A stretch of 24,648 nt of DNA, taken from IMG/VR virus record IMGVR_UViG_3300010160_000213, positions 1-24,648 of that record; one strand, 5' to 3'. Below, piece after piece: positions 5,171-23,242 of this stretch. A program made the position numbers and the translations under genes. The first letter of the stretch is position 1, and each line of letters begins with the position of its first letter. This stretch comes from a virus. Below the pieces are notes generated by a model that saw only the letters and a list, made by a program, of their open reading frames with translations, was not told where the DNA came from and searched no databases.

Positions 5171-5485
5171 ATGAGAAAAAAGAGAAACGATAGAAACCAC
5201 GTATTGTACGAAATAGTAAACACTAGCAATGGTAAAAGTTATTTAGGTATCACCGCGGCAATTGGTAGACGTTTCCACTACTCTGCTAAATTGAGGTTAC
5301 AAAAACATTTCAGTAGAGCTCGTAAAGAAAACAAACAATGGGCGTTGTATATTGATATGCGAGAGAATGACCAAGAAGTATACGAGTTGTTTATTGTGGA
5401 TATAGTGAGAGGTAAAGCACTAGCACATAAAATTGAAACGCAATTGTTAAAAGAATTTAAATACGAATTAAATTCAACACACTAA
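5171..5485 (+). CDS. GIY-YIG nuclease-like protein
   Basis: A 104-residue protein with the core of a GIY-YIG endonuclease: LYEIVNTSNGKSYLGIT (about residues 12-28) supplies the GIY/YIG strands, followed by Arg (GRRF), a His (LQKHFSRA) and a Glu near the end (KIETQLLKEF). Enzymes of this fold cut DNA with one metal ion. The domain is nearly the whole protein; no extra DNA-binding domain is visible. Small phage copies may be homing endonucleases or nucleases acting on host or phage DNA. It starts 1 nt after the previous stop, inside an operon, and no disrupted gene or intron boundary is evident. Confidence 0.65.
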   Translation: MRKKRNDRNHVLYEIVNTSNGKSYLGITAAIGRRFHYSAKLRLQKHFSRARKENKQWALYIDMRENDQEVYELFIVDIVRGKALAHKIETQLLKEFKYELNSTH

Positions 5486-8997: not shown

Positions 8998-9315
8998 ATG
9001 TTAAAAGAGCATGTATATATTGAATCGGCAGATGAATTTGGTTGTTCAGTAGGAGTGGCTCACATCACAGGTTATAAAAGAAAGGAAGAACATATAACGG
9101 AATACTCAAAAGAAGATTATAAGAACTTATCGGACGAGTTAGAGATTAACGATATTATAAACACGGCAATAGATAGGGGTGAATACCAATCCTTAATGAG
9201 AGGGGTTCTTAAAAGTGAAAAGGACGGTAGAAAACTAAAACCTCTCACTATATATAAAAAACAATTGAACAATGGCATCGGTAAAGTTTTCAAATCACCC
9301 AGAAAGGTATTCTAA
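8998..9315 (+). CDS. Hypothetical acidic-basic protein
   Basis: A 105-residue soluble protein with no recognised domain: N-terminal strands (EHVYIESADEFGCSVGVAHI), an acidic helix (YKNLSDELEINDIINTAIDR) and a basic tail (GKVFKSPRKVF). The last 44 nt overlap the next gene in a different frame, the longest overlap in this stretch, so one of the two ends may be shorter in reality; both frames look coding. Confidence 0.55.
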   Translation: MLKEHVYIESADEFGCSVGVAHITGYKRKEEHITEYSKEDYKNLSDELEINDIINTAIDRGEYQSLMRGVLKSEKDGRKLKPLTIYKKQLNNGIGKVFKSPRKVF

Positions 9316-10237
9316 AAAAGATGGTAATTGGGTTATAAACGCAAGTACGGGTTCATACATAACCGAACCTTATATATTCTCTGCTAACGAAAAGAAAATA
9401 GATTTTCTACCCATATTAAACAATGAGGTATTAGTTATTGTAAAGATACAAGAAAAATATCTTTGCTCACCTCTCACACTACAAGATTTAAAAGATAATT
9501 CGGAGGAAAACCCACACTGGTGGTACGATGTTCGACATGCCGTTCCAACTCCATCCACATCAGGTTCAGTAAACATAGGAGGAACTATCCCTATTATAGA
9601 ATTAGATATGGAAACTATAATGGAATTAGCGGATATAGAAACAGAACTTATACCTTATGCGGGAGTAAAGGATGTAACATGGGTATTTGAAGGAGATTCG
9701 GTATTAACTCCTAAACTAATAGACCAATTAAATTATTGTTTAACTAATGTAACCAAAAGACCGGCAGATGAATGGCAACTATGGGACCTAAATCTTTCCG
9801 CCGACTACTCTATCAATCAACTTAAAATAGAAGCTCCAACAACGGAAGGAGCATCGATTGATAAAGAAAAACTGGCTAATAACCTAATGGAGATAAATAA
9901 AAGAATCAAAGGATTAAGAACGGATTTCAATAATATCAAAAACATATTCTATAACGGAGAGAAAGGTAAAGATATGTTATACTATTCCGATTATCAATCT
10001 TCCGCCGTTGGTTCTCTTGCTCCTGAAACCTCTATCAAACTTTCCGATACTGCACCCGTCGTATTTAAAACGAGTGAAATTGTCGAAGTGAAAACACCCG
10101 CGGTTCAAGCTCAAACGGAAGCCGCAATCGCTGCTGTTACTCCTACTACCGATACTACAACTAATACGACCCCTACTCGTCCTGGGTTTACCGGTGGTGG
10201 AGGTCTTTTCCGTAACCGTCCAACTCCACAAAGATAA
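9272..10237 (+). CDS. Possible virion protein with Thr/Pro-rich tail
   Basis: A 321-residue protein of unknown family. Residues 1-95 look beta-rich with aromatic pairs (HWWYDV); 100-200 are mixed; about 205-235 form a helix (LMEINKRIKGLRTDFNN); from about 260 the sequence turns into a low-complexity Thr/Ala/Pro stretch ending in Gly-rich PGFTGGGGLF. This tail also differs in base and codon use (CGT, CCT, CTC, ACC) from the AGA/TTA-rich body. A globular body plus a disordered Thr-rich end suits a virion-associated or scaffold-like protein, but this is inference. It starts inside the preceding gene. Confidence 0.65.
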   Translation: MASVKFSNHPERYSKKDGNWVINASTGSYITEPYIFSANEKKIDFLPILNNEVLVIVKIQEKYLCSPLTLQDLKDNSEENPHWWYDVRHAVPTPSTSGSVNIGGTIPIIELDMETIMELADIETELIPYAGVKDVTWVFEGDSVLTPKLIDQLNYCLTNVTKRPADEWQLWDLNLSADYSINQLKIEAPTTEGASIDKEKLANNLMEINKRIKGLRTDFNNIKNIFYNGEKGKDMLYYSDYQSSAVGSLAPETSIKLSDTAPVVFKTSEIVEVKTPAVQAQTEAAIAAVTPTTDTTTNTTPTRPGFTGGGGLFRNRPTPQR

Positions 10238-11174: not shown

Positions 11175-13100
11175 ATGAGAGCAGTCCTAATAGGTACAGA
11201 CTTTATAAAAGATACCGATGGTTCTTTTAAAGCAATTGAAACTAATACAAATATATCAATAGATGTAAATGTTCTAAATCACATTGATTCTGGTTCACTT
11301 ACAAATTTTGTATTAGATAATAATATACAAGAAATACATTTAATTAGTACCCAACCCAATTTAGATGTCTTTGACGATTTTAAAATTGAAGGACAATCGA
11401 GTCAATTTCACACATTTTTATCACAATCAATTTGTATACCAAATGATATACAATTCCACTTACATACAGTAGAAAATAATTCAATAACTATTCCACAAAT
11501 AGATGATTCTGATAATAAACTAATTATAAGAATATCATATGACACTACCGCATTGTTAGATGATACATATGCTAAAGATAATTGGGAATTTTTAAAAATA
11601 ATGTATGATAACAATCCAAATTCAATTCCAAAATGTTATATAGACGACATTGAATTAGGAATTGATAACATCGGGGAAGATTTGAGAGATAATGGTAACC
11701 ATCCAAATTATTGTATTAAAAAAAGAATAACACCATCTGACAATAAGGTATATCCAAAATTATATAAAATAGAAACAATTTTAGAATTAGAAAATCTAAA
11801 ATCAAATTTAGAAATAGATGAATATATACAAGAGTATATTTATAATACACAAGAATTAATTGATAATAAAACATTTCATTATAGAAGTGTAGATTTAGTG
11901 TATGGCCAATTGGATTCGTTAAACTTATATGTTTATAATAAAACAAATATGGCACCTATTGTAAATTCTTGTGATTTTGATGATAATAAGGTGGTTCAAG
12001 TTTGGGATAGACTTAGATATGTTAGTAAAGTTTCTAATGGAACAACTGATGTATCTGTTAGATTGGACGCCGATTCTACTACAAAAGTAGTTTTAAAAGA
12101 CAATTCGATTATTACCGCAGATAATTTATCTATAAACGATGAGGTTAAATCAATAAATTTTGCTGACCCAATATCATTTGCAATATCTGATAATTGGTCT
12201 GGTAGTTATAATAATTTTTCACAAAATTATAATATAACATCATCGGTAGTCGTAGAAAAAACCACATTTGACTACTTCGGCCCAATAATTAATTTAGAGT
12301 TGGATAACGGGTCTACCTTTTCAGATGTACCACATGGCAGGATATTTAAAGTAATAAATGTAGCAATTGAAGATACTATTGAAACAAATATAGTAATCGT
12401 TCCGTATGATGGCCTATCAATTGGAGATACTATAATAGTGTTAAATAATGAAACCAATTTAATTGAAACTAAAAATGTTCAAAATATATTATATTCATTT
12501 GAAAAACTACAATCATATAGAATTAACGTAGAAGAATCTGATTTATTTTTCTCAATGGAAGAAACTGAAAATCAATCAATATATGGAATTCTTACACATA
12601 ATTATGATTATGATTGTAAATTCGTAACAGGATATGGTTGTTATGGAGAGGTTAGCAACGGAACTCTATGTTCAGCAGGCTCCGACCCAGGTTCATCTAC
12701 ATGTGGTTATTATACACCAGTTTGTATGAGATGCAATGGTGTTTATGACGATTGTGGTTACATTGGAAATTTTTATTGTTATTATTATGGTGTTTATGGT
12801 TGTAATTATGCTGGTGCGACACAGGCCGATGGTGCTTATTGTAATGGACAAAAGTCAGATAAAAGATTAAAGAAAAATATTAATTTCTTATACGAACAAG
12901 AAAATGGTATAAAGATTTATGAATTTGAATTTATAGATGATGCAATAAAAAATAATCCAGATTTAGAAGGAAAATGGAGAGGTGTAATTGCACAAGATTT
13001 AATAGGAACAAAGTTTGAAGAAGCATTAAATTTAGAAGAAGATGGATATTTCTCAGTAAATTATGAAACAATTTCGGTAGAATTAATAAAATTAAATTAA
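11175..13100 (+). CDS. Multidomain fibre-like protein: ATP-grasp-like, Hint-like, Cys-rich, S74 chaperone
   Basis: A 641-residue protein. Residues 1-30 carry LIGTDFIKDTDGSFKAIETN, like the metal-binding end of an ATP-grasp fold; 113-260 have IIRISYDTTALLDDTYAKDN, IKKR, YIQEYI and HYRSVDLVYG, like its nucleotide-binding part, so the order looks permuted. Residues 296-476 resemble a Hint (intein/hedgehog) domain: LKDNSIITADNLSINDEV, VPHGRIF and the end GILTHN. The position-1 Cys is replaced (RLDAD) and Tyr follows the final Asn, so splicing is unlikely; Asn-driven C-terminal cleavage remains possible. Residues 481-556 hold ten Cys in a Tyr/Gly-rich stretch. Residues 561-641 start SDKRLKKNI, the peptidase S74 chaperone that trimerises and self-cleaves from phage fibres. 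It is probably a tail fibre or fibre-modifying protein. Confidence 0.7.
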   Translation: MRAVLIGTDFIKDTDGSFKAIETNTNISIDVNVLNHIDSGSLTNFVLDNNIQEIHLISTQPNLDVFDDFKIEGQSSQFHTFLSQSICIPNDIQFHLHTVENNSITIPQIDDSDNKLIIRISYDTTALLDDTYAKDNWEFLKIMYDNNPNSIPKCYIDDIELGIDNIGEDLRDNGNHPNYCIKKRITPSDNKVYPKLYKIETILELENLKSNLEIDEYIQEYIYNTQELIDNKTFHYRSVDLVYGQLDSLNLYVYNKTNMAPIVNSCDFDDNKVVQVWDRLRYVSKVSNGTTDVSVRLDADSTTKVVLKDNSIITADNLSINDEVKSINFADPISFAISDNWSGSYNNFSQNYNITSSVVVEKTTFDYFGPIINLELDNGSTFSDVPHGRIFKVINVAIEDTIETNIVIVPYDGLSIGDTIIVLNNETNLIETKNVQNILYSFEKLQSYRINVEESDLFFSMEETENQSIYGILTHNYDYDCKFVTGYGCYGEVSNGTLCSAGSDPGSSTCGYYTPVCMRCNGVYDDCGYIGNFYCYYYGVYGCNYAGATQADGAYCNGQKSDKRLKKNINFLYEQENGIKIYEFEFIDDAIKNNPDLEGKWRGVIAQDLIGTKFEEALNLEEDGYFSVNYETISVELIKLN

Positions 13101-13104
13101 TATT

Positions 13105-13254
13105 ATGAGTACAACAAATAACAAAAATACAAAGTATAGTGATAAAGACGCATTTGTATCTAAAATTAAAAAAATAAATAATACAACCGATAAGGTTAAT
13201 ATAAAAGTGGTAGTAGAAAATTTTCTTAATTTAGTGAAATTAAAACATACTTAA
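13105..13254 (+). CDS. Small Lys/Asn-rich protein
   Basis: A 49-residue soluble protein starting MSTTNNKNTKYSDKDAF with a helical end (VVVENFLNLVKLKHT). It lies 4 nt after the fibre-like gene and 17 nt before the Cys-cluster gene. A short helical companion right after a fibre gene may be an assembly chaperone, but no homologue is recognised. Confidence 0.55.
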   Translation: MSTTNNKNTKYSDKDAFVSKIKKINNTTDKVNIKVVVENFLNLVKLKHT

Positions 13255-13271
13255 AATTTAAATAATAGGTT

Positions 13272-13598
13272 ATGAATTTCGGATTAAAGAAAATAATAAG
13301 TGGATTGGTAAAAGACCCATCCAAAATTATTACAATTGCAGACGCATGGGTAACCTCCGTTAATCCAACCGACAAACAAAAAGAATTAGCAGAGGGTAGG
13401 TGGAATGTATGTGTACAATGCCCTGAATTTAGAGAAAAAAGACCAGTAACAGGTGAACCATTTTGTAATGATTGTGGATGCCCATTAAATAAAAAGATAT
13501 TTTCTAAAATTTACAACGAATGTCCATTAAAGAATTGGAAAGATATAGACGATATTTTGTGGCCACCTACACAAAAGCAAAATAAATCCATATTATAG
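13272..13598 (+). CDS. Cys-cluster (zinc or Fe-S) protein
   Basis: A 108-residue protein with six Cys in a compact arrangement: CVQC (47, 50), CNDCGC (65, 68, 70) and CPL (84), within RWNVCVQCPEF and EPFCNDCGCPLNKK. This matches the short zinc-ribbon-like proteins common in T4-like marine phages, of unknown function; iron-sulfur binding is also possible. The N-terminal 40 residues are helical (GLKKIISGLVKDPSKI). Its TAG stop shares one base with the GTG start of the next gene, so it is coupled to the glycan-modification genes. Confidence 0.65.
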   Translation: MNFGLKKIISGLVKDPSKIITIADAWVTSVNPTDKQKELAEGRWNVCVQCPEFREKRPVTGEPFCNDCGCPLNKKIFSKIYNECPLKNWKDIDDILWPPTQKQNKSIL

Positions 13599-14896
13599 TG
13601 ATTGATAAAAATAAAATATACATTCATCACTATTACACCAAATCGTTATTTTATAAAATCTTACACAATACAACCAATCGGACATATAGATTAAATAACT
13701 CCGTAGGTAGTATTTTTTGTAAATATAATAATAAAGATATTGAAGTAATATTTGACCCAATATTAAATGATAACGATGATGGTTATCATATTATAGACTT
13801 TATGTCTATTCTATATCAATACAATAGAGATGAAAAATTCTCAAGTATAAAATGTATTAATAAAATAACAGGAGTGTCAGCACACAGAGGTGCACAAGGT
13901 GCAGAATTTGGTGTTAATGATATTCCCATAATGAAATGGATTGCAGATGCTATATCGAGTAAATCTAACTGGTTTGTATTTTTATTAAGAACCGAAAAGT
14001 CTTATATAAAATACGATGGTATACCCTATCATAGTATTTTAGATTTAGAAACTCAAATAGAAAGATTAAAAAATCATTTTATTATAGATGATAATATTTT
14101 TATAGATAATGATATAAAATTACATTATCCAAATAGTAATTTTGCATTAACCAATACCATACATCAATGGAATGAATTACTTTCTATTAGATGGTATTAT
14201 GAATTTAAAAATGTTTTTGAAAAATTAAATCAACCATATGATTTGTGTTTTTCTATCAGATATCACAAACGACATAGAAAGGACTATATGTTAAAATTGT
14301 CAGAATTTAATCATCCTAAAATTTATTTATCTAGAGTAGATAATTGTAAAAATACTGAGTTTAAAAGATATGGTGATGCTTTAAAAGCTGATGCGAGGAT
14401 AAATTTTAATATAACCGAAGGTGATGACTTTGAAGATATAAGTTGGATAGAAAATATTGAACATTATTTAGATTATTTAATGAGAATATTACCAATGTCA
14501 AAGATGCATATTATGTCAGAAACTTGGGATTGGACAAATAATTTATCATCGGGATATCTTTCCGAAAAGTCGTATGGATTAATACTGGCCAATGTTCCAT
14601 TTATATCTATACACCCATATCCATTGAAAATGATTGAGACAATTTTAAATGTTCCGGCCCATCCATTTTATAATGAAGCTTTGGAATATAAAAATAATCC
14701 AAATTTGTTTATAGAATTCGTTGATAAATTTATGCAAGATTATGAAAAAAATTATAAAGTGTGTAAAGATTGGGTTACACTATGTAATGAAAAACTAATG
14801 AATGAAGTAACTACAAAAAATTCTTTTTTAGATTTATTGTTATATAAAAACCTAAAAATCTCAAATCAAGTAAGAAATATAAAAAAAATAATATAA
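13598..14896 (+). CDS. Glycosyltransferase-like protein
   Basis: A 432-residue protein with a GTG start overlapping the previous TAG by one base. I recognise no full domain, but the C-terminal half has the form of a GT-B sugar-nucleotide-binding region: SEKSYGLILANVPFISIHPY (about residues 322-341) resembles the (T/S)EK-x4-I-x5-PFI element of phage and fucosyltransferase-like enzymes. The N-terminal half has many Tyr/Asp residues and SAHRGAQGAEFGVNDIPIM. Its place at the head of a chain of sulfotransferase, SGNH and acetyltransferase-like genes supports a sugar-transfer role. The end overlaps the next ATG (TAATG). It could also be an unrelated phage protein with the same C-terminal element. 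Confidence 0.5.
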   Translation: MIDKNKIYIHHYYTKSLFYKILHNTTNRTYRLNNSVGSIFCKYNNKDIEVIFDPILNDNDDGYHIIDFMSILYQYNRDEKFSSIKCINKITGVSAHRGAQGAEFGVNDIPIMKWIADAISSKSNWFVFLLRTEKSYIKYDGIPYHSILDLETQIERLKNHFIIDDNIFIDNDIKLHYPNSNFALTNTIHQWNELLSIRWYYEFKNVFEKLNQPYDLCFSIRYHKRHRKDYMLKLSEFNHPKIYLSRVDNCKNTEFKRYGDALKADARINFNITEGDDFEDISWIENIEHYLDYLMRILPMSKMHIMSETWDWTNNLSSGYLSEKSYGLILANVPFISIHPYPLKMIETILNVPAHPFYNEALEYKNNPNLFIEFVDKFMQDYEKNYKVCKDWVTLCNEKLMNEVTTKNSFLDLLLYKNLKISNQVRNIKKII

Positions 14897-15606
14897 TGTT
14901 AATAGAAAATCAATTTGTTTATTTACCTATACCAAAGAACGCATCAACCAGTATTATATATTCTATGTTACATTGGAGATTTAAGGTTGATTTTGGTGAT
15001 ACTACATTGAACAAAATTATGTATGACCAAATCGATAGTAATAGGCCATTTGCTCACTATCATAACACATATGATTATTATAAAAATATATTTCCAGATA
15101 AAAAAACAATAGGAATTTATCGACCATCGGAAGATAGATTTATATCCGCATTAAAATATATGGTTTTAATGTGTAAAGAAAATCGTGTAGAATTAAAATA
15201 CAATTTTGAAAAACTGAATGAGGTTGAGATAATAGAAATTTTTTCGAAAATATTTTTTGAATTAGATACCACAAAAGAACCAAATAATGATATGGAATTA
15301 AAACAATATGATAAAGATATCTACAATATCATAAAAAGAAATATTACAAATGATTATTTAAATTTTAATAAAATGCATTTAAATAATTTTAGGTCACAAT
15401 ATTTTTGGGGATTAAATAAATGTGATATAATAATAAACATGTCCGAATTAAATGAATTTACAAACATCATTAAAAAAATGAAGCCGAATTTTAATTTGAT
15501 TAAAATGAACAAAAGCAATGACATATCTTTAAAAATTACTAAATCGGAAGAGATTATTAATTTTGTAAATGAACACATCGATTATAAGTGGTTGAATGAA
15601 AAATAA
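14896..15606 (+). CDS. Sulfotransferase-like protein 1
   Basis: A 236-residue protein with the two PAPS-binding elements of carbohydrate sulfotransferases: the 5'-phosphosulfate loop in PIPKNASTSI (residues 11-20; Lys-Asn-Ala-Ser-Thr-Ser) and the 3'-phosphate element TIGIYRPSEDRFISALKYM (71-89), in which Arg-Pro-x3-Arg-x2-Ser fits R-x-P-x2-R-x2-S. HYHNTYDYYKN between them supplies a possible general base His. These enzymes move sulfate from PAPS to sugar hydroxyls. It is shorter than most sulfotransferases (about 250-300), with no signal peptide or membrane anchor. The start overlaps the previous stop by one base. Confidence 0.65.
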   Translation: MLIENQFVYLPIPKNASTSIIYSMLHWRFKVDFGDTTLNKIMYDQIDSNRPFAHYHNTYDYYKNIFPDKKTIGIYRPSEDRFISALKYMVLMCKENRVELKYNFEKLNEVEIIEIFSKIFFELDTTKEPNNDMELKQYDKDIYNIIKRNITNDYLNFNKMHLNNFRSQYFWGLNKCDIIINMSELNEFTNIIKKMKPNFNLIKMNKSNDISLKITKSEEIINFVNEHIDYKWLNEK

Positions 15607-16249
15607 TAAATTATATCATTTTGGTGATTCATTTGCAGTAGTTAAAAAATCAAAAAATTTCGGTGAGTATATTGCCGAACATTTTAATATGCATTATATA
15701 AACCTAGGTGAAACGGGAATATCCAATGAACAAATATTTCATAAAATTTTAGATTGTTATGATAATATAAATCCCGACGATATTGTTTTAATAAATTTTA
15801 GTTTTTTGGCTAGAGGGTTGATGGTAAATGAGATGGGTGATTTAAAGTCTACAAATACCCTATTAGATGATAATCAAAATATAATAACAGTAGAAGGTTT
15901 AAATTTATTAAGAACCAATAGTGCAGCTATACTTGATTATTTTATAAAATATAATTACGATTACAATATAAAACTATTTACATCCATATCCAAAGTATTA
16001 AATAATTTGAAAAAAAAAGGTGTAAAAGTTTATCATGTTTTTATTAAAAAAGATAATCTATATTATGGTAATAAAGTTTTCAATAAAACACAATATAATT
16101 TTCATTTACCAAACGAATTGGATTTTAAACCAAATTATTATCAATGGTTAAAATATAAAGAATGGAAAAACGAAGAAGATATACATTATACTTATAATAT
16201 TCAAAAGGAACTATCTATTGAATATATAAAACGAATTAATAATGAATAA
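15596..16249 (+). CDS. SGNH/GDSL-type hydrolase 2
   Basis: A 217-residue protein with HFGDSFA at residues 8-14 (nucleophile Ser12), GISNEQI in the block II position, LINFSF in the block III position and EDIHYTYNIQ near the C-terminus for the Asp-x-His pair. It is a divergent paralogue of the 10384 and 16242 products. It is probably an esterase or acyltransferase acting on sugar-linked acyl groups; no signal peptide. The start lies 11 nt inside the preceding sulfotransferase-like gene. Confidence 0.65.
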   Translation: MKNNKLYHFGDSFAVVKKSKNFGEYIAEHFNMHYINLGETGISNEQIFHKILDCYDNINPDDIVLINFSFLARGLMVNEMGDLKSTNTLLDDNQNIITVEGLNLLRTNSAAILDYFIKYNYDYNIKLFTSISKVLNNLKKKGVKVYHVFIKKDNLYYGNKVFNKTQYNFHLPNELDFKPNYYQWLKYKEWKNEEDIHYTYNIQKELSIEYIKRINNE

Positions 16250-16850
16250 CATTTGGTGTTTCGGTGATTCTTTTACCTATGGACATGGTTGCACACCAGA
16301 ATATGAATATTATCAAAAATATAAAAAAGATAAAGATGATTTATGGTGTAATCATTTAGGTAATTTATTAAATATGAACGTAATAAATAATGGTGTAAAT
16401 GGTTGTAGTAATGATATTATAATTGATTTAATAATTGATAACTTTAACAAAATTAAATCGGATGATATAGTAATTATAGGAAAAACTTTCAGTTACAGAT
16501 ATGATATACCATCTTTAAATAATGAAAATAAATGGATTTCGGCACATGATGTAATATATCATAAAGAGAAATATAATGAAGAACAATATCAAACTATATT
16601 GAATTTTTCATATCATTTTGCAAAAAATAAAAAATATAAAAATAGACAAAACAATAGAATTAATTTTTTAATAAGTGTATTAAACGAAAAAAACATAAAA
16701 ACTTTATTGTGGTCAGTTGAAGAGGACATTTTATTTTACGATAGAATACGAGACGCAACAAATGGTAAAATAGACGACGCACATTTGTCATTTAAAGGAC
16801 ATCTTCAATTTTACCAATGGATATACCAAAAATTAATTAAAATTTTATGA
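16242..16850 (+). CDS. SGNH/GDSL-type hydrolase 3
   Basis: A 202-residue protein with the clearest SGNH set of the three: CFGDSFTYGHGC (residues 6-17, nucleophile Ser10), GVNGCSND in the block II position (Gly), IIGKTFSYR in the block III position and DDAHLSFKGH for the Asp-His pair. It should hydrolyse or transfer acyl groups on glycans. It overlaps the preceding paralogue by 8 nt and the following gene by 4 nt (ATGA), as in a tightly coupled operon. The two adjacent paralogues may act on different positions or form a heteromer; that is inference. Confidence 0.7.
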   Translation: MNNIWCFGDSFTYGHGCTPEYEYYQKYKKDKDDLWCNHLGNLLNMNVINNGVNGCSNDIIIDLIIDNFNKIKSDDIVIIGKTFSYRYDIPSLNNENKWISAHDVIYHKEKYNEEQYQTILNFSYHFAKNKKYKNRQNNRINFLISVLNEKNIKTLLWSVEEDILFYDRIRDATNGKIDDAHLSFKGHLQFYQWIYQKLIKIL

Positions 16851-17446
16851 TAGTAAAAAAATTTTCTTACACGGATAAGTTTGATGTAATTGCACCTTTA
16901 AAATGTGGAACACGTTGGTTAGAAAAAAATACAAATCCAAACAATATTGAAGAAATCAAATACGAAGAATTGTTTAATAAAACATTAAAAGAAAAAACAT
17001 TTTTTATTTATAGAGATGTTTTGCAACATTTTAAATCCGGTTTATATACAGAATATCTTTGGTTCAACCATACTGCAATCCCAAATTCGGATGTTGGTAA
17101 TTTAAAATTAAAAAAAAATACGAAAGACTTTGACAAATATAAAAACATAAACAAATTATTTAAAAAATTAACAATTTATGGCGGCCATTTTATTCCAAAA
17201 CTTTGGGAAAAAATGTATTATAACAAATCAAATTTTATTTTTACAAAATTAGATAATTTAAAAAATATTTTTGATGATGAAAATATGAGTTATGACCCAA
17301 CCGATTTTGATTTTTCCAAAGAATACAATGATGTACTAACAAAAGAAGAGGTCTTTAATATGTTATCCGAAACGGATTTGGATGAATTAAATAAAATAAT
17401 TGAAAAGGAAAACTATTATCTAAATGAAATATTATCAATTAAATAA
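16847..17446 (+). CDS. Sulfotransferase-like protein 2
   Basis: A 199-residue protein. APLKCGTRWL (residues 16-25) fits the 5'-phosphosulfate loop of sulfotransferases (K-x-G-(T/S)), and TFFIYRDVLQHFKSGLYTEY (51-70) fits the 3'-phosphate element with Arg56 and Ser64. A His pair (GGHF, YLWFNHT) lies in the region expected to hold the catalytic base. It is smaller than the first sulfotransferase-like protein and is only distantly related to it. Sulfate donation from PAPS to a sugar is the likely reaction, with moderate certainty. Coupled to the GNAT-like gene by a 23-nt overlap. Confidence 0.55.
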   Translation: MIVKKFSYTDKFDVIAPLKCGTRWLEKNTNPNNIEEIKYEELFNKTLKEKTFFIYRDVLQHFKSGLYTEYLWFNHTAIPNSDVGNLKLKKNTKDFDKYKNINKLFKKLTIYGGHFIPKLWEKMYYNKSNFIFTKLDNLKNIFDDENMSYDPTDFDFSKEYNDVLTKEEVFNMLSETDLDELNKIIEKENYYLNEILSIK

Positions 17447-17882
17447 AGAAGATTACATCGAAGAAGCTGATTTACACATTGTACACATTTATAATAAAAC
17501 GTGGTCGGAAACATATAAAGATTCATTACAACTTTTAATAAATTATTTTCATAAAGAATATAAGTGGAATGAAATGTTTACAATTGATGATGCTATAAAT
17601 AGAATACAAACTGGCGATAATTTGTTTTTATTGTACATCAACAATAGAGTAATCGGATATGTGTGGTTTAAAGAATTAGATAAAGATACTTGCTTTGGAT
17701 ACAATTTGTATGTTACTAAAAAAATAGATAGACCAAAATCTGCACCAAAATGGTTTTATAATAAAGTAAGTGGTATTATGTTAAAAAATTATAAAACTAT
17801 TGAAGTAGAAATTGAAGATTGGAATGATATAGTATTTGATTTAGTCGAAAGTATTGGATATAAAAAAATAAAAAAACATTAA
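17424..17882 (+). CDS. GNAT-like acetyltransferase
   Basis: A 152-residue protein of GNAT form: a helical N-terminus with WSETYKDSLQLLIN, the strand pair NLFLLYINNRVIGYVWFKE (about residues 69-87), a central YNLYV strand, and VEIEDWNDIVFDLVESIGYK near the end, which fits the C-terminal element (x-N-x3-x3-S-x-G-(F/Y)) of acetyl-CoA N-acetyltransferases. The exact R/Q-x-x-G-x-G/A acetyl-CoA loop is not clear, so it may be degenerate or use another acyl donor. Its place in the cassette suggests amino-sugar acetylation. The start lies 23 nt inside the preceding gene. Confidence 0.5.
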   Translation: MKYYQLNKEDYIEEADLHIVHIYNKTWSETYKDSLQLLINYFHKEYKWNEMFTIDDAINRIQTGDNLFLLYINNRVIGYVWFKELDKDTCFGYNLYVTKKIDRPKSAPKWFYNKVSGIMLKNYKTIEVEIEDWNDIVFDLVESIGYKKIKKH

Positions 17883-17888
17883 TATAAT

Positions 17889-18545
17889 ATGGAAAAGATA
17901 TACTTTGATGATGAGACTTACATATGGAAAACCAATTTTGATATTTCACATATGAAAGATGATGTGTTAGAAGAATGCCTCAGTATTATAAAACATATGG
18001 AAGATTCAAGACCATATGATGCTTTTATATTTTATAGAGAATGGAACGAACATTTAAATTTTATTGGTGATATTGAATCAACTAAAAAAATATATGAAAT
18101 AGTTAAAGAAGGCATAAAAGCATGTACTACATTATTTAATGAAAATATAAAATTACCATATAATAAAATAAACACAATGGGTTGGATAAATATAGTAAGA
18201 GCAAAGAATCCAAAGCAGGTTAACTTTTTAACAGAAACAGAAACAGAAATAATAATGCACAATCACGCCGAACTCAATAGTAATAGTAATCTTTTCAAGT
18301 GTGATTACACATATGTTCACTATGTTCAAATGCCGGATAATTTAGAAGGTAACGATGGTGTGTTATACATAGAGGGTAAAGATGGAATTATTTATAATAT
18401 TCTCCCAAAAGAAAATGATATAATTATAATGGAAGGAAGAGTTCCTCACGTACCCGCATCAGCTAAAAAATCTACTAAAGATAGAATAGTTATTGCTGGT
18501 AATGTTGGATTTGAAATGATTAAAAAAAGAAATAGCTTAATATAA
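17889..18545 (+). CDS. 2OG-Fe(II) oxygenase-like protein
   Basis: A 218-residue protein with a double-stranded beta-helix pattern. MHNHAELN (residues 123-130) gives H124 and an acidic or His partner (H126 or E128), EGRVPHVPAS gives H187, and DRIVIAGNVG gives R199 for 2-oxoglutarate. The segment YTYVHYVQMPDNLEGNDGVLYI (shortened: YVHYVQMP...GVLYI) matches the family of putative phage 2OG-Fe(II) oxygenases that are common in T4-like phages of aquatic hosts. The target (sugar, protein or nucleobase) is unknown. It is the last gene of the cassette; a promoter follows 3 nt after its stop. Confidence 0.65.
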   Translation: MEKIYFDDETYIWKTNFDISHMKDDVLEECLSIIKHMEDSRPYDAFIFYREWNEHLNFIGDIESTKKIYEIVKEGIKACTTLFNENIKLPYNKINTMGWINIVRAKNPKQVNFLTETETEIIMHNHAELNSNSNLFKCDYTYVHYVQMPDNLEGNDGVLYIEGKDGIIYNILPKENDIIIMEGRVPHVPASAKKSTKDRIVIAGNVGFEMIKKRNSLI

Positions 18546-19341: not shown

Positions 19342-19743
19342 ATGATTATTAATGAGTTTGACAGATTGATTAACGATTGGTTTGAAAATGATTACAACCA
19401 AAATTGGAGTGCAGCAAAAACAACAACCTATGTACCTAACAAATTTGCAGTGGATATCAAAGATGATACTGCAACAATGGCATTATCGGTATTGGGACAT
19501 GACCCAAAAAATATTGAAATCAATTGTTATGAAGATAAAATTGAAATCAAAGCAAAAAAATCTCAAGAGGATAAAGAAAATCCATTTAATCAATTAATTT
19601 CCGATATTGAAGAAAGAATCACTATTGGTAAAAATTATGATGGTAGACAGGCAAAAGCCGAAATTAAGAATGGTATTTTATCAATTACTCTTGAAAAGAA
19701 AGAAGAGTCCAAACCAAAAAAATTAACCTTAAAAGTTGGTTAA
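19342..19743 (+). CDS. hsp20: Small heat-shock protein (Hsp20/alpha-crystallin)
   Basis: A 133-residue small heat-shock protein, an ATP-independent holdase that prevents protein aggregation in the cytoplasm. The alpha-crystallin domain spans about residues 35-130: FAVDIKDDTATMALSVLGHD, then the beta strands KNIEINCYEDKIEIKAKK, and the family signature AEIKNGILSITLEKKEE with the C-terminal KKLTLKV. The N-terminal arm (INEFDRLINDWFEN) is the usual oligomerisation region; a short IxI-like end is missing. Hsp20 genes are known in T4-like cyanophages, probably for capsid folding. It is followed by the hairpin at 19769-19800. Confidence 0.9.
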   Translation: MIINEFDRLINDWFENDYNQNWSAAKTTTYVPNKFAVDIKDDTATMALSVLGHDPKNIEINCYEDKIEIKAKKSQEDKENPFNQLISDIEERITIGKNYDGRQAKAEIKNGILSITLEKKEESKPKKLTLKVG

Positions 19744-21163: not shown

Positions 21164-22051
21164 ATGAATATAGGATATGCATGTATTAATATGACGATGG
21201 GTAAGAAAGTTACCACTAATCGTACAATGGTGAAGAAAACATTCAATGCCAAAGGCTTGGATTATGTTTCGGAGTTGGCATTACTAAATGCAAAAGATAT
21301 TATTAAGATTTTAGAATGGAATAGAATAAACGGAATTAAATTCTTTCGTTTATCATCTACTATCATCCCGTGGGGTGATAATTTTGATATTACTCAATTA
21401 AAGGATTACAAAGAGATTAAAAGTGAGTTAAAAAAGGCAGGTGATTTCGCAAAGTTTCACAATATCCGTATTACATCACATCCGGGTCCATATAATGTAT
21501 TAGTTTCACCAAATGAATCGGTTATAGTTAAAACTATTGCTGATTTAGAGTTACATGGTAAAATATTCGATATGATGGGATTATCTAAAACTCCCTACAA
21601 TAAAATTAATATTCATTGCAATGGTGTTTACGGAGATAAAAAAGCTGCAATGGATAGATTCATCAAAAACTTCCAAAGACTCTCTAAATCGGTGCAAAAA
21701 CGACTTACAATAGAAAATGATGATAAGGCGTCTATGTATTCAGTTAAAGACCTTATGTATATTTATTCTGCTATAAAAACTCCAATTGTTTTTGATTATC
21801 ATCACCATCAATTTTGCACAGGTGATTTATCCGAACAATCGGCATTAGAATTAGCAATATCAACATGGCCGAAAGGAATTACACCAGTTGTGCACTATTC
21901 CGAATCAAAAGCATTGCACGAAAATAACCCAAAAGAAAAACCACAAGCTCACTCACTTTATATAAATGCACTTCCGAATACATATGGTGAAGATGTTGAT
22001 ATTATGGTTGAAGCAAAGGGTAAAGAATTAGCAATATTAAAATTTATATAA
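21164..22051 (+). CDS. uvdE: UV damage endonuclease UvdE/UvsE
   Basis: A 295-residue TIM-barrel endonuclease that nicks DNA 5' of UV photoproducts and starts excision repair. Family motifs are in order: GYACINMTM (4-12), FRLSSTIIPWGDNF (61-74), SHPGPYNVL (105-113), NINIHC-type KINIHCNGVYGDK (147-159), LTIENDD (181-187), VFDYHHHQF (209-217), PVVHYSES (241-248) and the late H263 and E283. Metal ligands H106, H151, E184, D211, H244, H263 and E283 are all present. Its length is typical. The gene starts directly after P7, so the message may be leaderless, and its stop overlaps the next ATG (TAATG). It presumably protects phage DNA in sunlit water. Confidence 0.9.
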   Translation: MNIGYACINMTMGKKVTTNRTMVKKTFNAKGLDYVSELALLNAKDIIKILEWNRINGIKFFRLSSTIIPWGDNFDITQLKDYKEIKSELKKAGDFAKFHNIRITSHPGPYNVLVSPNESVIVKTIADLELHGKIFDMMGLSKTPYNKINIHCNGVYGDKKAAMDRFIKNFQRLSKSVQKRLTIENDDKASMYSVKDLMYIYSAIKTPIVFDYHHHQFCTGDLSEQSALELAISTWPKGITPVVHYSESKALHENNPKEKPQAHSLYINALPNTYGEDVDIMVEAKGKELAILKFI

Positions 22052-22606: not shown

Positions 22607-23242
22607 ATGAAATTAATAGTAGACAAACGTTCAAATGGACTAATAACGAAAGAGTTTAGAGAATATCTAAAAACTCCTGTATTAAAGTCAGAAATAACAC
22701 AAGATGAAGCTGATAATTTGAGAATGCAATTAACAGACGCCCTGATAGAGTATCCGGGATTAGGTATTTCTGCAACACAAATTGGTATTAAGAAACGAGC
22801 GTGTTATATTCAATTTGGTGATGAAGAATTATTCTTATTAAACCCAGTTATTAAAGAAAAATCTAAAGAAGGATTTCTTTTTTATGAGGGATGTTTATCA
22901 ATTCCATCTACACTTACAAAACCAATTAGAACAATTAGAGCTTGTAAAATTGTGATTGATACCGATAATTTGGGAGAATTAACTTTTGAAATAAATCCAG
23001 AAGGTGATAAAGCAAATGAATCAGTTTCGAAAGAAACAATGATGACGGTTATTGTTCAGCATGAAATTGACCATTTAGATGGATTTACAATTAAAGATAG
23101 AGTATACAACACACAGGTTGTAAAAAGACAAAGCTATGGTAGAAATGATAAAATTGTAATGAAATCAAAAGAAGGAGAATTGATTGAAGTTAAATTTAAA
23201 AATTCAAATAAATATTTTTTAGAAGGATACGAAATAGTTTAA
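22607..23242 (+). CDS. def: Peptide deformylase
   Basis: A 211-residue peptide deformylase, which removes the formyl group from new proteins, acting at the ribosome. The three family motifs are intact: GLGISATQIG (51-60, with Q58), YEGCLS (93-98, with Cys96) and QHEIDHLDG (151-159, with H152, E153 and H156). Metal ligands are C96, H152 and H156. There is an acidic segment before motif III and a longer C-terminal tail than in many phage deformylases. Phage-encoded deformylases are well known in aquatic T4-like phages and may keep late protein synthesis efficient. The start follows the DUF2061 stop by 3 nt. Confidence 0.9.
   Translation: MKLIVDKRSNGLITKEFREYLKTPVLKSEITQDEADNLRMQLTDALIEYPGLGISATQIGIKKRACYIQFGDEELFLLNPVIKEKSKEGFLFYEGCLSIPSTLTKPIRTIRACKIVIDTDNLGELTFEINPEGDKANESVSKETMMTVIVQHEIDHLDGFTIKDRVYNTQVVKRQSYGRNDKIVMKSKEGELIEVKFKNSNKYFLEGYEIV

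Follow-up and report, generated by a model that had tools for sequence, protein, structure and literature searches.

The plus-strand open reading frame at 11175..13100 in the window, a 24.6-kb fragment (24,648 nucleotides) of an uncultured virus, encodes a 641-aa modular carrier protein with a permuted ATP-grasp head, a Hint domain lacking Cys1, a ten-Cys tail, and an S74 domain. The constant core of this protein is a circularly permuted ATP-grasp-like domain followed by a Hint fold without Cys1. The region past the final Asn of the Hint domain is exchangeable and consists of a tail with an even number of cysteines, of such a tail plus S74 as in the window, or of one or two intact Hint domains. 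Many uncultured phages carry the gene together with two small partner genes, an arrangement suggestive of a phage protein-tailoring system not described before. Our leading explanation, which we hold tentatively, is that the protein acts as the carrier of a phage protein-maturation module, in which enzymes bearing a shared C-terminal tag mature its variable disulfide tail.

The reading frame and its four-part anatomy had been proposed in a first-pass annotation of the window; the frame is there, and the anatomy holds domain by domain. The assignments of the permuted ATP-grasp-like, Hint, and S74 domains are well supported, even though residues 1 to 560 received no significant name in searches of Pfam, PHROGs, NCBIfam, and PDB sequences. 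What alters the picture is the presence of conserved partner genes and of a C-terminal tag common to nearby proteins, both of which that annotation had missed.

Domain architecture of the carrier protein

For residues 1 to 289 (11175..12041, plus strand), profile placement and residue invariance make a circularly permuted ATP-grasp domain the best reading. Motif scans and profile alignment place the ExN metal motif, which normally lies on the final strand, in residues 9 to 25 (DFIKDTDGSFKAIETNT, 11199..11249, plus strand), so that the permutation point is at the N-terminus. ExN is described as a standard final-strand motif, alongside conserved lysines of the RAGNYA domain (PMC4431377), and the title of Polekhina 1999 (cited in PMC2213659) concerns the rare permutation seen in eukaryotic glutathione synthetase. 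Among 72 distinct sequences, D9, D13, G16, E22, N24, T25, R119, D123, D129, Y132, P177, K182, and R237 are invariant and K198 is kept in 71; most of these positions are polar. The ExN motif and its upstream Asp (D9, E22, and N24) are thus present throughout. D13 is lost in the subfamily that we call d, in which the hairpin is one residue shorter.

Once the hairpin had been placed back at the C-terminus, the profile of the family could be aligned to RimK across 165 columns; the DK motif, the ATP lysines, the QE hinge, the Arg strand, and the ExN strand were in order, and the ATP-lobe lysines K182 and K198 and R237 were in register. This bears out the earlier suggestion that residues 1 to 290 resemble a permuted ATP-grasp fold. 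The hhalign scores against GSP_synth, GSH_synth, CP_ATPgrasp_2, and RimK (17.6, 26.5, 22.5, and 18.7, respectively) exceeded both the maxima of 100 column shuffles (16.4, 21.9, 19.6, and 18.0) and the maxima of 12 unrelated real-family controls (16.1, 21.5, 17.5, and 16.6), and a wide set of relatives gave stronger alignments than a narrow one. Because the individual E values stay at 0.013 to 0.28 (0.15 for the RimK profile), we take this as strong evidence of placement and not as a significant match. Structure prediction was consistent with it: the AF2 model of residues 1 to 289 is modest (pLDDT of 67, pTM of 0.65), and its order of secondary-structure elements is that of an ATP-grasp domain with the last hairpin shifted to the N-terminus. 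A structural match to an ATP-grasp protein does exist, as had been anticipated, but it is weak; the best PDB fold match found by Foldseek is the glutathione synthetase-like structure 5oev (E = 0.033, probability of 0.57), whose family is known to include permutations of this type. Foldseek against viral models gave nothing useful, and sequence searches of the head in Pfam, PHROGs, NCBIfam, and PDB gave chance-level matches only, none of them above the Pfam cut-off. To judge from its conserved residues, the constant core is probably enzymatic, with a predicted ATP-grasp activity.

Residues ~290 to 476 (12042..12602, plus strand) adopt a Hint fold by AF2 model, Foldseek, and alignment, with Asp298 at the Cys1 position and a T474-H475-N476 end. 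The Hint region of the C-terminal model has pLDDT values of mostly 70 to 90. Foldseek returned 34 PDB matches at an E value of ≤0.001 (best E = 2.2e-6, TMt up to 0.76), and the 50 best matches were inteins, hedgehog domains, or bacterial intein-like (BIL) domains without exception. The loss of the first Cys and the retention of the final HN, first noted for the window protein, extend to its relatives. Cys1 is absent from the first Hint domain in 110/110 members, and the final Asn is kept in all 110; the residue before it is His in 107 members, Ser in two, and Ala in one. Ser occupies the Cys1-aligned position in many members, all of them in subfamily a. Since Cys1 is missing and blocks B and F of the first Hint domain are variable and degenerate, canonical splicing with its N-terminal step is not expected. 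The +1 residue is mostly not C, S, or T. Splicing or ligation by this domain is therefore predicted to be unlikely, and C-terminal cleavage after Asn476 by Asn cyclization is possible.

The variable tail comprises residues 477 to 560 (12603..12854, plus strand), contains ten cysteines predicted to be disulfide paired, and ends in CNGQK, as established by alignment and Cys counts; the ten-Cys segment described earlier is confirmed by this count. It is followed by an S74 chaperone/autoprotease at residues 561 to 641 (12855..13097, plus strand), detected by PHROGs and by Pfam PF13884 at residues 561 to 610 (E = 1.4e-4 to 3.4e-4, at or just below the gathering score). A Ser and a Lys at +5, here Ser561 and Lys566, are kept in S74-containing members, the same spacing as in the Ser-Lys dyads S911/K916 of endoNF and S587/K592 of MyRF (PMC8326128). 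Two relatives without S74 (L026 and L085) end in ...CNHQK, exactly at the predicted S74 cut site, and ...K is also the C-terminus of several more distantly related members that lack S74. Because the dyad is kept and S74-less relatives stop at the cut site, self-removal of S74 before Ser561 is likely. Thus, the functional guess of the first-pass annotation, that two self-cleavage modules might release or ligate the Cys-rich segment, was half right: the S74 cut is supported by dyad spacing and natural C-termini, and the Hint domain is an unlikely splicing or ligation element. The S74 domain is only ~66 to 85 aa long and optional within the family, and the AF2 monomer model has no long C-terminal trimerizing helix.

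Relatives and the exchangeable C-terminus

Successive searches of IMG/VR raised the number of loci from 8 to 18 and then to 35. Scanning IMG/VR DNA for the N-terminal motif yielded 34 stretches, all 34 of which are members of the carrier family with the motif 8 residues after Met, so the motif exceeds chance. A looser scan revealed a far larger family, with an Asp eight residues after Met in 60/60 N-terminal matches, and searching from the side of a partner gene added a fourth subfamily. Loci in all counts given here are phylogenetically non-independent and include some near-duplicates, open reading frames were called mechanically, and tails were delimited by pattern. Subfamily a is the window type, with a Cys tail and usually S74. 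Subfamily b proteins are ~500 aa long and have a short Cys tail. In most members of subfamily c, the first Hint domain is followed by one or two more that are intact and contain Cys1, and a few members have no recognized tail. Subfamily d proteins are ~495 aa long with a six-Cys tail of 25 to 31 aa, and one of them has S74.

The carrier core had no match in 50,697 phage records, and no relatives were found in cultured phages. A tandem-Hint relative matches phage inteins solely through its second and third Hint domains. Seven loci (L202, L204, L210, L211, L218, L223, and L266) have one or two intact Hint domains behind the Cys1-less one, and rows of Hint domains occur in a single phage protein, e.g., SHNAPCFVAGT...VHNRACFVKGT...HNK. 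One match in a bacterial genome, L062, is on a contig of 3.7 kb from a Pelagibacterales MAG, into which phage DNA may have been binned.

With the tail taken as the stretch between the Asn of the Hint domain and S74 or the stop, its number of cysteines is 6, 8, 10, or 12, even in 54/54 members and in 33/33 of an independently gathered set (87/87 together). As the counts are even and changes of a single Cys were never seen, the cysteines are predicted to pair in disulfides. A Zn or Fe-S cluster was rejected as their reason because counts of 6 and 10 suit pairs and not fours. The subfamily d tails (L335 to L389) are very short, Trp rich, and placed directly after the HN of the Hint domain, e.g., SCWCPWNYCGHWCNSWYCPGCSNVPVPKL.

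These tails and the S74 domain could also belong to an ordinary virion fiber or tip, the first-pass annotation having described the protein as fiber-like. The ATP-grasp and Hint domains would then be inert structural modules, the Cys-rich part would bind a receptor, S74 would trimerize the protein and be cut off, and the nearby enzymes would be unrelated genes for host takeover or glycans. S74 is typical of phage fibers and spikes (PMC7824862, PMC8326128), the tails are hypervariable and disulfide-like, and in a jumbo phage relative (L089) the gene lies near a repeat-rich gene of ~2,000 aa that is tail-fiber-like by eye. An inert scaffold would hardly keep the catalytic-type residues D9, E22, N24, K182, and R237 in 72/72 and K198 in 71/72 very divergent sequences, however, and S74 is missing from most subfamilies. 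No neighbor in the window was identified as structural, and the shared tag and the obligate small partners would go unexplained. We therefore consider a fiber unlikely overall; it is most tenable for the clade of the window, in which S74 is present.

Small partners and a shared C-terminal tag

Directly behind the carrier gene lies a gene for a 49-aa micropeptide (13105..13254, plus strand; MSTTNNKN...NFLNLVKLKHT), which has a counterpart behind nearly every member checked and in all four subfamilies. It is 45 to 50 aa long in 30/30 members of subfamily a, 24 to 29 aa in 25/25 of subfamily b, and 46 to 63 aa in the subfamily c members listed. It was also found in 32 of 33 further members, the one exception being a case where the scan chose another ATG. 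In subfamily a, mean pS is 0.35 and mean pN is 0.14, with pS exceeding pN in 18 of 19 related pairs; by this measure, the micropeptide is under purifying selection there.

The second partner is a 108-aa six-Cys protein (13272..13598, plus strand; CxxC...CxxCGC...CP, PHROG 13558) ending in the tag NKSIL. Its gene is an obligate neighbor of Cys-tail members, lying within 3.5 kb in 53/53 of those with sufficient flank. Among members without a Cys tail it was found in 0/5 with sufficient flank and in 0/13 regardless of flank. It is downstream of the carrier gene in close relatives and upstream in distant ones, which indicates that the pairing outlived rearrangement. In the reciprocal search, the carrier core was present in 76 of the best 80 of at least 568 six-Cys loci, and one of the four others has room on both sides; a search of cultured phages found no six-Cys protein. 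The association of this protein with Cys tails could reflect one or two events.

Unrelated proteins encoded near the carrier gene, at 13272 to 18545 in the window and in the neighborhoods of 227 related loci, share a C-terminal tag of approximately KxK[ST]LI. Counting same-strand open reading frames and excluding the six-Cys protein, the strict pattern ([KRNQ][TS][LIF][ILF]-COOH) occurs in 282/1088 proteins from -4 to +6 kb (26%) and in 7/303 farther out (2.3%; Fisher P = 4e-25); shuffled C-ends would give 2.4 of 1088. A looser pattern is found in 75% of proteins within 1.5 kb downstream and in 5% beyond 4 kb upstream. The tag is thus linked to the carrier locus, since its frequency is highest at the carrier gene and drops within ~6 kb to either side. 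Tagged members fall into thirty sequence clusters around all four subfamilies, with representatives matching 2OG-FeII_Oxy_3 (7e-9) and radical SAM (1.7e-7). Clusters named sulfotransferase-like by eye are also among the tag neighbors. Two further neighbors fit the pattern only loosely: a SET protein (1.8e-4) ending in VNLI and a Trp_halogenase (2e-89) ending in KKELI, other members of whose cluster end in SNSLI or SNTLI. None of the halogenase and oxygenase homologues inspected in Pelagibacter phage HTVC008M and in phage Syn1 carries the tag. Trp-halogenase genes are present in nine subfamily d loci; a correlation between Trp-halogenase genes and Trp-rich tails (P = 6e-4) was set aside because it is confounded by subfamily d.

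Within the window, a 2OG-Fe(II) oxygenase-like protein (17889..18545, plus strand; PHROG 81, E = 6e-8) ends in the tag IKKRNSLI. A 432-aa protein, glycosyltransferase-like by eye only (13598..14896, plus strand), has the looser tag NIKKII, and its homologues are encoded close to the carrier gene at 22 further loci; the product of 16242 to 16850 also has a looser version. The products of 14896 to 15606 and 16847 to 17446 are sulfotransferase-like by eye (PIPKNASTS and APLKCGTRW, respectively), with no significant Pfam match. The gene at 9272 to 10237, for a 321-aa protein, is conserved at 14 related loci, where it likewise lies upstream of the carrier gene. Elsewhere in the window are genes for Hsp20 (19342 to 19743, 3.7e-11), the UV-endonuclease UvdE (21164 to 22051, 4e-64), peptide deformylase (22607 to 23242, 8e-22), and a GIY-YIG protein (5171 to 5485, 2.5e-5), which together are a large-phage gene set. 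T4 late promoter sites (TATAAATA) are rarer than chance in the window and uninformative, although one lies just before the carrier gene.

The tag is possibly a docking or targeting signal. Short C-terminal tags often direct localization, and the tag could signal something other than docking to the carrier: it may mark a common destination, such as virion packaging, a phage compartment, or a host site, with the carrier acting as receptor or sorter or being merely co-located. Its presence on so many unrelated families, the six-Cys protein included, would suit such a destination. Its peak at the carrier gene and its fall within ~6 kb are compatible with docking and co-targeting alike, and we regard a destination without docking as rather doubtful, somewhat more so than a fiber.

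Proposed function and comparison with known systems

Least probable is a releasable mini-protein in the layout of a polymorphic toxin, in which Asn cyclization at the end of the Hint domain would free a disulfide-rich peptide of 25 to 110 aa against competitors or the host: the order of constant head, Hint domain, and variable tail, the final Asn in 110/110 members with His or Ser before it in 109, and the compact 25- to 31-aa six-Cys peptides right after HN in subfamily d are as expected for it, but every first Hint domain lacks Cys1 and has degenerate block B and F residues, S74 fused behind the tail in some members suits display over release, and no immunity or export gene was noticed.

A carrier with docked enzymes fits best because the core is probably enzymatic, the disulfide-containing C-terminus is exchangeable, the small partners are obligate, and the enzymes are commonly tagged. 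Under this explanation, the tagged enzymes would dock on the constant core, or on a common partner, and then modify the tail. The ATP-grasp domain may act as an active ligase on the tail, the micropeptide, or a tag, and the six-Cys protein may aid folding of the tail or the pairing of its cysteines. In the clade of the window, S74 would oligomerize the tail and detach itself by cleavage before Ser561, so that the mature end would be ...CNGQK560, and the mature tail would probably be displayed on the virion. A more specific form of the proposal is conceivable, although we hold it with less confidence: an assembly-line-like system in which the shared tag addresses unrelated enzymes (oxygenases, radical SAM proteins, sulfotransferases, methyltransferases, and others) to the constant permuted ATP-grasp-Hint carrier, where they decorate its variable disulfide-bonded mini-protein with the micropeptide and the six-Cys protein as obligate cofactors.

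Genes for auxiliary oxygenases, halogenases, radical SAM proteins, and sulfotransferase-like enzymes abound in phage genomes, and most of them have no known substrate. A carrier with a variable Cys-rich tail amid commonly tagged enzymes offers a concrete, testable substrate and targeting rule. If the proposal is correct, it would describe a new kind of viral posttranslational chemistry and a source of disulfide-rich modified mini-proteins. We know of no earlier role for a permuted ATP-grasp domain fused to a Hint domain, so this would be the first known to us.

No described system like the carrier and its tagged enzymes was found in the open-access literature, but parts of it resemble known ones. 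The locus is reminiscent of RiPP and protein-tailoring clusters in having a short, variable, Cys-, Trp-, and Tyr-rich substrate-like segment amid 2OG-oxygenase, radical SAM, halogenase, sulfotransferase-like, and SET genes. It differs from RiPP clusters in that the segment that would serve as substrate forms the C-terminal end of a large, constant protein and the enzymes share a tag; furthermore, no known precursor, leader-recognition domain, or exporter was noticed among the Pfam-searched neighbors. With the S74 chaperone domains of endosialidase, the T5 L-shaped fiber, and MyRF, the carrier shares the SDxxxK signature and the Ser/Lys +5 dyad, but its S74 domain is short, has no long C-terminal helix in the model, and is optional. 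The Hint domains of inteins, hedgehog proteins, and BIL proteins have the same fold and C-terminal (H/S)N, whereas that of the carrier lacks Cys1, has degenerate blocks B and F, and serves as a constant module before a variable tail. RimK-type ligases resemble the de-permuted carrier profile in the order of the lysines, QE hinge, Arg strand, and ExN strand; the carrier differs in being permuted and in having no usual Gly-rich loop, and the profile E value is only 0.15. The carrier shares its domain order with permuted ATP-grasp enzymes (eukaryotic-type glutathione synthetase, the glutathionylspermidine synthase GSP_synth, and CP_ATPgrasp_1/2), in which the D...ExN metal motif likewise comes first, followed by the substrate domain and the ATP lobe. 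The carrier profile aligns to the ExN motifs of four ATP-grasp families, that of GSH_synth at family columns 141 to 161 (score of 26.5 versus a shuffle maximum of 21.9). Compared with these enzymes, the carrier head is much shorter, without a significant sequence match, and its motif begins 8 residues after Met; it is also phage encoded and fused to a Hint domain and a variable tail.
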